Source of the DNA: Pseudomonadota bacterium
GTDB taxonomy: Bacteria; Pseudomonadota; Gammaproteobacteria; Burkholderiales; Rhodocyclaceae
Reading direction: 5' to 3'
DNA: 64,000 nucleotides
Assembly: GCA_018240785.1 (NCBI GenBank)
Contig: JAFEFC010000003.1
Coordinates: 149,043 to 213,042 of the forward strand
The notes under the pieces are model-generated. The model had not been told where the DNA came from, made no database searches, and saw only the letters and a program-made list of their open reading frames with translations. This document shows positions 52,040 through 54,627 of this stretch, piece by piece. The position numbers were made by a program, and so were the translations under genes. Position 1 is the first letter of the stretch. Each line of letters opens with the position of its first letter.

Positions 52040-54289
52040 GTGTTCTTTGCTCACTCCACGCAGCGTAATGACAGATCCGACTGGCAAACTCTGGCCCAAC
52101 ATCTCCAGAATGTCGCCGCGTTGGCAGCCGATAGCGCCACCCTCTTCGGTGCCTCGGAGTTGGGAAGGATCGCGGGCCTACTTCACGATCTCGGCAAGTA
52201 CTCCGACGATTTCCAGCGTCGAATAGCAGGTGACGCCATTCGGGTGGATCACGCGACGCGTGGTGCAATGCTGGCCGTTGAACGCTACAAGCACATCGGC
52301 ATGCTGCTCGCCTATGGCATCGCTGGTCATCATGCTGGCTTGGCAAACGGCAGCGAGGGGAGCGAGCGAATTGCACTTTGCGATCGGCTGAAGGGTGTCG
52401 GACTGCCACCGTTGAAGGATGATTGGCAGCACGAGATCGCTCTGCCTGAGCAGGTAACTCCACCCAAGCTCGTCCCGCAGAACGGGTGCGGCATGTTCCA
52501 GTTCGCATTCTTCGCGCGCATGTTGTTCTCGTGCCTGGTGGATGCGGATTATCTCGACACCGAGTCGTTTTACGATCGTGTCGCGCTTCCGGGCCAGCCC
52601 AACGATCGCAGCGCATCGCGTGCGCTGGCGTCGCCGTCCCTGGAGTCGCTGCGCGAGCGCCTCGATACCTATCTTTCCGGCTTCGACGCCGATTCGCACG
52701 TCAATCGCGTCCGGGCGGAAATCCTTGCTCATACGCGCAAGGCCGCGACACATGCGCCTGGCCTGTTCTCGCTCACGGTGCCTACCGGCGGCGGAAAGAC
52801 GCTGGCCTCACTTGCCTTCGCACTCGACCATGCCATTGCGCACGGGCTGCGGCGGGTGATCTTCGTGATCCCCTTCACCAGCATCGTCGAGCAGAACGCC
52901 GCGGTGTTCCGCACTGCGCTCGGCGATCTTGGGGAGGCTGCGGTGCTGGAGCACCACAGCGCTTTCGTTGCCGCCCAACTCCCCCGGTCGGACGCTGAGC
53001 GTTACCAGGCCAAGGAAAAGCTGCGGCTCGCGATGGAGAACTGGGATGCGCCCATCATCGTCACCACCGCCGTGCAGTTCTTCGAGAGCCTGTTCGCGGC
53101 ACGGCCGTCACAGTGCCGAAAGCTGCACAACATCGCGGGCAGCGTGGTCATCCTCGACGAAGCGCAGACTTTGCCGCTGAAGCTGCTGCGGCCGGCGGTC
53201 GCGGCCATCGATGAACTGGCCCGTAACTACCGCAGCAGCATTGTCCTGTGCACCGCCACCCAGCCAGCCTTGAACGCACCGGATTTTCAAGGTGGGCTGG
53301 AGAAGGTGCGCGAACTCGCCCCGAATCCTCCAGAGCTCTTCCGCAAGCTGGACCGGGTACGCGTGCGCCATGTCGGCGCACTCGATGACGATGAGCTTGC
53401 GGCTCAACTCCGCACCCTCGACCAGGTGCTGTGCATCGTCAACAACCGCCGCCACGCCCGCGCGGTGTATCAGGCGCTCGCCGACCTGCCGGGCGCGCGG
53501 CACCTGACCACGCTGATGTGCGCCAAGCACCGTAGCCAGGTCCTGGCCGAGGTGCGGGCGCGCCTCAAGGCGGGCGAGCCTTGCCGGCTTGTTTCAACGT
53601 CGTTGATCGAAGCCGGTGTCGATATCTCCCTGCCCATTGTCTATCGCGCCGAAGCGGGCCTGGACTCCGTCGCCCAGGCCGCGGGGCGCTGCAACCGCAA
53701 CGGCGAACGAGCGGCCGACCAGAGCGAGGTGCGTGTGTTCGCAACCGCCCATGGTGACTGGGCGCCTCCGCCAGAACTTCGCCAGTTCGCCCAGGCCGCG
53801 CAGGAGGTCATGCGCCAGCCGCAATTCCGTGACGATCCGCTCTCGCCGTCGGCGATCGAAGCCTACTTCCGGCTGCTCTACTGGAAAAAGGGCGACAAGG
53901 AACTGGATGCGGCGAACCTGCTTGGCCTCTGCGCAGAAAGCCGGATCGACTCCCTGCCGCTGGAAACGCTGGCGGCCAAGTTCCGCATGATCGACACGGT
54001 GCAGATGCCGGTCATCGTGCCCTTCGACGACCACGCGCGCCGCGATCTCGAAAGCCTGCGCTTTGCGGAAAAGAGTGGCGGGCTCGCGCGCAAGCTCCAG
54101 CCCTATCTGGTGCAGCTGCCACGCAACGGATTCGATGCGCTGCGCAAGGCGGGCGCGATTCAGCCGGTTGCGCCAGAGAAATGGGGAGAGCAGTTCGTGG
54201 AGCTGGTGAACGTGGACCTGTACGACCGGCGATTCGGGTTGTCCTGGGACGATCCGGCGTTCATCAAGCCTGAGAGCTTGATGTGGTGA
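52040..54289 (+). CDS. cas3: CRISPR-associated nuclease/helicase Cas3 (type I-C)
   Basis: A 749-residue protein starting with GTG. N-terminal HD nuclease: [18 protein letters not shown] (residues ~47-59), VDHATRG and [10 protein letters not shown]. Helicase: Walker [13 protein letters not shown] (near 250), DEAQ in [13 protein letters not shown], motif V/VI in [12 protein letters not shown] and [10 protein letters not shown]. It degrades DNA bound by Cascade. The stop overlaps the GIY-YIG gene start. Confidence 0.96.
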
Positions 54290-54627
54290 GGAAGCCGACG
54301 AAGAGCGTCATCTACATGATCACGTACCCAAACGGGAAGATCTACGTTGGTCAGGACCGCACCAACAGCATCAACTACTTCGGCAGTGCCAGTAGCGAGC
54401 TGATCGCGCGCGACTTCACCGAGGAGTCGCGGCGGGACTTCACCATCCGCCGCACGATCCTGTGGGAGTCGGAATCCGCGTCCGCGGCAGAGGTGACTCA
54501 GAAGGAGGCCGAGTTGATCCGCCGGCTCCAGTCCAACAATCCGATCATCGGCTACAACCGTTGGCCGAAGTACGTCCCGGCCCCGAGTGGCCGGGACGAT
54601 GCAACCGAGGGAGGGCACGAGGAATGA
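54286..54627 (+). CDS. Small GIY-YIG nuclease-domain protein inside the cas operon
   Basis: A 113-residue protein, GTG start (54286, or 54283 one codon earlier) in a GTGA overlap with cas3, and ATGA overlap with cas5c. The GIY-YIG pattern is [16 protein letters not shown] (residues 8-23), with Tyr10 and Tyr20; YFGSASSEL follows at 31-39, a candidate metal-binding Glu is Glu74 (in [10 protein letters not shown]) and GYN is at 89-91. This is close to the Seg-like homing nuclease domain but without a DNA-binding domain. Cas2, not this gene, supplies the usual small nuclease of type I-C; GIY-YIG is not part of the standard set. It could be an accessory nuclease or a captured homing nuclease. Confidence 0.85.

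Follow-up and report, generated by a model that had tools for sequence, protein, structure and literature searches.

A GIY-YIG gene between cas3 and cas5c in a type I-C operon

We analysed a 64,000-nucleotide (nt) stretch of contig JAFEFC010000003.1 from a Rhodocyclaceae bacterium (hereafter the window), which carries a complete type I-C operon of the clustered regularly interspaced short palindromic repeats (CRISPR) system. The gene order is cas3, GIY-YIG, cas5c, cas8c, cas7, cas4, cas1 and cas2, followed by a CRISPR array (Table 1). The subject of this analysis is the second gene, a small open reading frame (ORF) that encodes a GIY-YIG domain protein (the GIY gene and GIY protein). The initial annotation had placed this gene between cas3 and cas5c in a type I-C setting, and both statements held: the ORF at 54283–54627 (+) is real, and Pfam and NCBIfam searches confirmed cas3, cas5c, cas8c, cas7, cas4, cas1 and cas2. 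A PADLOC run on cas3, cas5c, cas8c, cas7 and the GIY protein only also supports type I-C. Because all of the window's cas genes match their families, the GIY gene is an addition to Cas3 and not a replacement for it.

The overlaps claimed on both sides of the gene were likewise found. The GTG at 54286 runs into the cas3 stop codon at 54287–54289 (GTGA), and the GIY stop codon at 54625–54627 is shared with the cas5c ATG at 54624 (ATGA). Translation could start at an upstream GTG at 54283 (114 amino acids, aa) or at GTG 54286 (113 aa), and only the latter gives the GTGA overlap. A Shine–Dalgarno-like stretch ahead of cas5c, GAGGGAGGGCACGAGGA, falls within the last codons of the GIY gene, and the GC content at third codon positions is 0.86 in the GIY gene and 0.76–0.84 in the window's cas genes. 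In the array, the 12-nt 3′ end of the repeat, GTGGATTGAAAC, occurs in 55 copies between 60261 and 63882, and the last repeat is altered.

Table 1. Genes and features of the type I-C operon in the window.
Feature	Position	Strand	Evidence
cas3 (HD + helicase), ends TGG TGA	52040..54289	+	NCBIfam cas3_HD 2.7e-30, cas3_core 5e-30; PADLOC Cas3c 3.4e-227
GIY-YIG domain-only protein (putative), 113 codons from GTG 54286	54286..54627	+	Weak library matches, structure model, homologues at same junction
cas5c	54624..55298	+	NCBIfam TIGR01876 1.7e-55
cas8c; ATG 55295 overlaps cas5c stop; scanned protein began at 55298	55295..57148	+	NCBIfam TIGR01863 8.7e-178; start read from ORF list
cas7 (Csd2)	57145..58038	+	NCBIfam TIGR02589 1e-126
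cas4	58048..58707	+	NCBIfam TIGR00372 2.2e-43
cas1 (I-C)	58711..59751	+	NCBIfam TIGR03640 1.6e-154
cas2	59761..60051	+	NCBIfam TIGR01573 1.3e-19
CRISPR array, repeat GTCGCGCCCCTCGTGGGCGCGTGGATTGAAAC	60241..63950	+	Repeat-end matches

A divergent, domain-only GIY-YIG protein

Sequence libraries gave weak matches to the GIY protein. PF01541 matched at E 0.17 with 12.7 bits against a cut-off of 22.6, so that the curated GIY-YIG cut-off was not reached; TIGR01453 matched at E 0.0014, below its cut-off, in an NCBIfam scan; and the homing endonuclease family phrog_314 matched at E 5e-4. Within a 47-row family alignment, five rows matched PF01541 at E ≤ 0.01 and four matched Pfam SegE_GIY-YIG. A single-protein phmmer search of the PDB returned chance-looking matches only (protein disulfide isomerase, E 0.003).

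The AlphaFold model of the protein (predicted local distance difference test score, pLDDT, 88.2) has the elements E7-13, E19-24, H37-41, E55-62 and H67-81, which is the strand–strand–helix–strand–helix order of the GIY-YIG fold. Foldseek searches with this model retrieved 31 viral models from BFVD at E ≤ 0.001, the named ones being mostly GIY-YIG or homing/intron endonucleases; the same search of the PDB gave no match at E ≤ 0.001, which counts against the fold assignment. Across the family alignment Y20, E74 and N91 are invariant and Y10 is present in at least 90% of rows. When the family profile was compared with PDB sequences, the I-TevI catalytic domain 1ln0 ranked best (E 0.17) and 1mk0 gave E 1.7, neither being significant alone, and in the alignment with 1ln0 the GIY, YVG, Glu-helix and GYN elements coincide. 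The 113 residues comprise the domain alone and a low-confidence tail, with no DNA-binding domain of their own. Judged from its sequence and predicted fold, the window protein is a divergent, domain-only GIY-YIG protein, and nuclease activity is a probable prediction for it.

The same junction is occupied in eight operons

GIY homologues lie between cas3 and cas5c in eight operons (the carriers): the window and loci L001, L002, L005, L012, L016, L147 and L153. Recurrence at the same junction in seven further loci indicates that the window's arrangement is not a product of chance. The carriers come from Thauera, Solimonas/Nevskiales and Comamonadaceae-like lineages. L001, from a Thauera metagenome-assembled genome, is the closest named homologue, with a cas3 88% identical and a GIY protein 84% identical to those of the window, which makes Thauera the probable origin of the window as well. 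L147 was found in the family to which Solimonas genome G794 belongs, and L153 among relatives of the Comamonadaceae 2FH genome G796. Five carrier genomes searched as a whole contained one GIY copy each at E ≤ 0.001.

The junctions are closely packed. A GTG overlapping the cas3 stop codon as GTGA is available in six of the eight carriers, and the GIY–cas5c junction is ATGA in four, a 25-nt overlap in two, a 1-nt overlap in one and a 3-nt gap in one. The ratio of the proportions of non-synonymous and synonymous differences (pN/pS) for the GIY gene ranged from 0.17 to 0.41 over all 28 carrier pairs, with a median of 0.27 (cas3, 0.28; cas5c, 0.21), and the corresponding ratio of substitution rates (dN/dS) was 0.05–0.40 in the 15 pairs with a finite dS, many of them near saturation. 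The GIY gene is thus under purifying selection in the carriers.

Phylogenetic analysis demonstrated that the maximum-likelihood topology of the eight GIY proteins is identical to that of cas3 plus cas5c, with bootstrap values of 57–75 at the inner nodes of the GIY tree and 100 at the Thauera split; L001 supplies only 42 cas5c residues to this comparison. Mantel correlations of GIY distances were 0.78 with cas3 (23 of 40320 permutations as high) and 0.56 with cas5c (147 of 40320). Thr57 is present in six of the eight carriers and in none of 57 solitary rows, 55 of which have Glu, Asp or Gln at this position (57 of 63 solitary rows were kept and six far rows left out). The matching topology and Thr57 would speak for one gain.

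The gene thus occupies one and the same position in several operons and its tree agrees with theirs, as is expected of an accessory gene, one and three gains both being possible. The initial annotation had proposed an accessory nuclease, and the part of that proposal that makes the gene a lasting operon member stands, on eight operons, a shared junction, close packing, purifying selection and a common topology with cas3 and cas5c. Of the grounds for refutation that it had named, three do not hold: the gene is present in related I-C loci, its codons are not decaying and its homologues are not exclusively free, although most of them are. We tentatively favour, at somewhat less than an even chance, the reading that the GIY gene is a long-standing accessory nuclease gene of one I-C lineage, captured from a solitary pool and acting in trans through a Cas partner.

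The cas3–cas5c junction is a variable slot

We compared the interval between cas3 and cas5c in 67 distinct cas5c loci. It is shorter than 100 nt in 32 loci, and it holds a GIY gene in eight, a CreA-like guide in eight, genes for a Phd antitoxin and a PIN toxin in four, and other or unclassified contents in ten; four loci have no cas3 in the examined flank, and L081, a weaker CreA-like case in which cas3 was not seen, was counted separately. Seven of the eight carriers were found by searching with the GIY protein and the eighth is the window, so eight of 67 is not a frequency. The statement in the initial annotation that type I-C operons normally have no gene here needs qualifying: in 30 of the 62 loci with an upstream cas3, a biased set, the interval is at least 100 nt and often holds other small genes.

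TTC is the I-C protospacer-adjacent motif (PAM), and guide matching follows a sixth-base rule. Loci were called CreA-like where a repeat-like handle is followed by a guide matching a TTC-flanked upstream site, scored at all positions except each sixth and compared with 1000 shuffled guides. Among 23 non-carrier loci tested, all with gaps of at least 100 nt, eight qualified: L082 matched at 15/15 positions; L052, L061 and L162 at 14/15; L051 and L170 at 13/15; L062 at 12/15; and L163 at 11/15, with 0–1 of 1000 shuffles as good. The guide of L081 matched at 10/15 (27 of 1000 shuffles as good), and the other 14 of the 23 had no handle or a guide equalled by 86 to 677 of 1000 shuffles. When TTT and TTA were also allowed, the best site was TTC in all four loci examined. 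The gap of most of these loci also contains a small ORF that by eye has a hydrophobic stretch; it runs in the cas direction in L051, L052, L081, L082, L162 and L163 and in the opposite direction in L061 and L062, and L170 shows no clear example.

Phd/YefM antitoxin and PIN toxin genes lie between cas3 and cas5c in L055, L056, L057 and L089, with a remnant in L065; the L056 pair matched Pfam at 6.7e-12 and 1.4e-13, and the other three pairs were named by likeness, by eye. A tiny ORF that follows the pattern MDWKGxxRELRLLLxxLPxxRFW and includes a hydrophobic stretch recurs in L063, L070, L086, L087, L088, L092 and L166, where it lies upstream of cas5c or between that gene and cas3; the L061 and L062 ORFs are similar. 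No CreA-like guide was found in L063, L086, L087, L088, L092 or L166, and the copies of L087 and L063 matched no Pfam family above cut-off. In L081, a gene resembling an IS3-type transposase (by eye) occupies the place expected for cas3, which had no match in the examined flank. Taken together, these comparisons show that the cas3–cas5c junction is a variable slot whose occupants (none, a CreA-like guide, a Phd/PIN pair or a GIY-YIG gene) change between related operons.

These occupants raise the possibility that the GIY gene replaced a CreTA-like or toxin–antitoxin guard and encodes an abortive effector, a conditional toxin restrained by the Cas complex or released when infection or an anti-CRISPR disables that complex. 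We consider this improbable. The slot of related operons does hold CreA-like guides (eight of 67, besides the weaker L081) or Phd and PIN pairs (four of 67). CreTA modules (PMC8501985, PMC9458426 and PMC10097628) likewise reside between genes of a cas operon, and the I-F module lies in the cas3–csy1 gap, directly after cas3 (PMC10097628), so that type I-F puts the position after cas3 to the same use. In those accounts, however, CreTA relies on ectopic repeats and a PAM-flanked target, whereas none of the eight carrier slots contains a handle-like repeat end, which speaks against a CreT-type toxin. The full repeat matched the window slot at 19 of 32 positions without gaps (equalled in 6 of 200 shuffles), which we take for chance, and the best repeat end matched at 7 of 12 (equalled in 199 of 200). 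With up to two mismatches, the repeat end has, besides its copies in the array, one further occurrence in the window, at 50530, which is within chance; in L002, L005, L012 and L016 the repeat-end matches lie past cas2, among the first six positions listed in rising order. Furthermore, no antitoxin-sized gene adjoins the GIY gene, which is directly overlapped by cas3 and cas5c, and its solitary relatives sit away from these Cas genes. A CreT or type II toxin was accordingly disfavoured as a candidate, guide, repeat end and partner gene all being absent from the carrier slots or the window. The literature searched, which was covered in part, contained no CreTA or CRISPR-regulated toxin in type I-C.

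Distribution and phylogeny of the homologues

Several observations in this section weigh against the accessory reading, beginning with distribution. A scan of one genome per species yielded 44 GIY loci, of which five (L001, L002, L005, L012 and L016) are at the cas3–cas5c junction; the other 39 have no relative of the window operon's Cas proteins in the examined flank, some flanks being short and other Cas types not having been sought. The GIY family is thus mostly solitary and is not found mainly with CRISPR. In a class-level sample of 369 genomes, 29 were cas5c-positive and four GIY-positive, and in an order-level sample of 399 genomes the counts were 21 and 13; in each the two genes were adjacent in one cas5c-positive genome, the window's own. 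In G040 and G672 both genes are present on different contigs.

Closer to the carriers, four of nine cas5c-positive genomes in the G794 family (58 genomes) and two of eight among G796 relatives (120 genomes) carry the GIY gene at cas. Within the genus (29 genomes, GIY search only) there were two matches, one at cas and the other L047, which has no relative of the window operon's Cas proteins within its 2.4 kb. The class, order, G794 and G796 counts are the less biased measures of adjacency; cut-offs differ among the samples, and identical coordinates suggest that those of the order and of G796 overlap in genomes.

Solitary copies adjoin unrelated genes, and homologues occur at many unrelated places. 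Viral contigs contributed 28 loci with a GIY relative, none with a relative of the window operon's Cas proteins in the examined flank, and further relatives occur in six plasmid records and three phage records. Cut or broken solitary copies were seen (L032, L041–L044, L080, L104 and L111) as against none of the eight carriers. Decay of solitary copies was considered as a sign of selfishness and set aside, the broken copies being too few to count as evidence. By eye, and with no attC search, integron-cassette-like repeats lie near the solitary copies of L149, L017 and L018. In viral contigs L126, L133, L135, L137 and L141 the protein extends further beyond this domain at its C-terminus (235–289 aa in total), and these longer relatives are likely to link the small GIY family with homing endonucleases.

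The trees also leave room for repeated acquisition. In a cas3 plus cas5c tree of 25 loci chosen from the 67, all eight carriers fall within one 12-row clade (support 98/98), which also includes the non-carriers L081, L082, L168 and L170. This distribution implies either that the gene was gained once and lost or replaced twice, or that it was gained three times. The slots of L081, L082 and L170 are CreA-like; in L168 the 113-nt gap shows no clear gene and was labelled as empty in the tree and as another gap of at least 100 nt in the slot count. The carrier label requires three changes on the cas tree, and forcing the carriers together costs 20 log units (approximately unbiased test, p-AU 0.096). 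A GIY tree of 71 rows was built from 93 loci with a match of about 75 or more residues and no in-frame stop, after removal of 15 hand-listed near-copies and of identical rows; here too the cas label requires three changes, and a single clade is not rejected (p-AU 0.365). Over residues 7–96, the window protein has 77% identity with solitary L003 and 76% with L114, as compared with 59–70% for cas-linked copies from outside Thauera; the closest sequence to L153 is the solitary L017 (74%), and the closest to L016 is the solitary L006 (72%). That some cas-linked copies are nearest to solitary ones would speak against one gain. The GIY protein also changes faster than cas5c, as the pN/pS medians given above indicate.

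A further point concerns the active site. The helix-1 arginine of I-TevI (Arg27) has no conserved counterpart in the 47-row alignment as matched to the PDB profile hit; Arg25 is present in the Thauera pair (window and L001), and the other six carriers have Leu or Met. The initial annotation had listed all likely catalytic positions as present. This is true of Tyr10, Tyr20, Glu74 and Asn91, the two tyrosines, glutamate and asparagine with roles in GIY-YIG catalysis, but not of an Arg27 counterpart, and catalysis may for this reason be altered or lost.

The main rival explanation is that the GIY gene is a passenger in a permissive slot, a solitary gene that landed there once to three times and was kept for its own sake, or because its 3′ end now provides cas5c with a ribosome-binding site, and that plays no part in immunity. 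We regard this as unlikely, though it deserves serious weight. It would account for the varied small genes at this junction in related operons, for the scatter of homologues over genomes, viral contigs and plasmids, for the differing slots within the carriers' own clade and for the likeness of some cas-linked copies to solitary ones. A GTGA start would moreover arise easily, because cas3 ends in TGG TGA in six carriers (TGG TAG or TGG TAA in the other two). Against it stand the absence of decay in all eight carriers, the purifying selection and the topology shared with the cas genes, together with the Thr57 residue seen only in cas-linked rows.

Comparison with known GIY-YIG nucleases

The solitary small GIY-YIG proteins share the domain, the conserved Tyr/Tyr/Glu/Asn set and an NYFGS-type motif with the window protein, at 61–78% identity for 38 of the 39 solitary loci (48% for L042). 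They differ from it in not lying beside these cas genes, in a usually shorter C-terminus and in the lack of Thr57.

With the catalytic domain of I-TevI and the Seg-type phage homing endonucleases the window protein shares the order of GIY-YIG motifs and the profile alignment with 1ln0 and 1mk0; unlike them, it has no targeting part and no conserved Arg27 equivalent and does not lie in an intron. A homing endonuclease that cuts empty cas3–cas5c junctions and copies itself into them is nevertheless suggested by the nearest named relatives, which are homing endonucleases (phrog_314, TIGR01453, the BFVD matches and I-TevI as best PDB profile match). We judge this very improbable. The protein consists of the domain only, in contrast to the longer viral-contig relatives and to phage homing endonucleases of this class, which carry additional DNA-binding regions (PMC3943268). 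No Rfam family matched the window at gathering scores, which indicates no known intron. The scatter of the homologues over unrelated places speaks against entry into one fixed site, and the carrier GIY tree agrees with that of the cas genes.

SNIPE (PMC13190303) and ICP1 Odn (PMC8263062) are, like the GIY protein, GIY-YIG-superfamily nucleases, and they act in conflicts among phages, hosts and parasites. They differ from the GIY protein in that SNIPE additionally carries transmembrane and DUF4041 domains, whereas Odn is a chimeric nuclease, and in that neither is encoded inside an I-C cas operon.

In some type I systems an HNH domain is fused to Cas8 or Cas5. Such systems likewise link a second nuclease to effector genes, but as fusions, whereas the GIY gene stands on its own next to an intact cas3.

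Genes at 47235–50374 (−), on the upstream side of this operon, resemble, by eye, a pyrroloquinoline quinone (PQQ) biosynthesis cluster.

A possible mode of action and its implications

If the GIY gene is an accessory nuclease gene, its history would have begun with the capture of a solitary small GIY-YIG gene at the cas3–cas5c junction of one type I-C lineage. It would then have been retained in an accessory role, with serial translation of Cas3, the GIY protein and Cas5c, the overlaps pointing to translational coupling. The overlapping starts and stops would set the supply of GIY protein at roughly that of its neighbours. A GIY nuclease of this kind would need a partner, because it has no targeting or DNA-binding domain, and Cas3 and Cascade are at hand. 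Slx1 depends on Slx4, which offers an analogy for partner-directed GIY-YIG action. We infer that Cas3 or the I-C Cascade would most probably bring the protein to its substrate in trans.

The likeliest substrate would be DNA opened or unwound during interference. DNA cutting appears likelier than a role with CRISPR RNA (crRNA), since processing of the I-C crRNA is attributed to Cas5c, which PMC3150331 gives as a prediction. The outcome could be extra cleavage, or trimmed ends for spacer uptake by Cas4–Cas1–Cas2.

A more specific proposal, which we offer as doubtful, is that a type I-C lineage gained a trans-acting GIY-YIG enzyme as its second nuclease, that this enzyme is produced along with Cas3 and Cas5c and cuts DNA at or near the Cascade–Cas3 site, and that its gene took over the slot from the CreA-guided guards of sister operons, which would make the position after cas3 an exchangeable effector or guard position.

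No description of a GIY-YIG gene in an I-C operon was found in the literature searched (GIY-YIG with CRISPR), whose partial coverage does not establish absence in print; 'GIY' is absent from the main text of PMC10910872 as far as it was available. Type I-C is a compact Cas3 system used in genome editing (PMC11417383). If the accessory reading is true, a co-translated second nuclease would alter ideas on how type I-C systems destroy targets and make spacers. The changing occupants of the slot make guard-versus-effector questions testable by swaps.

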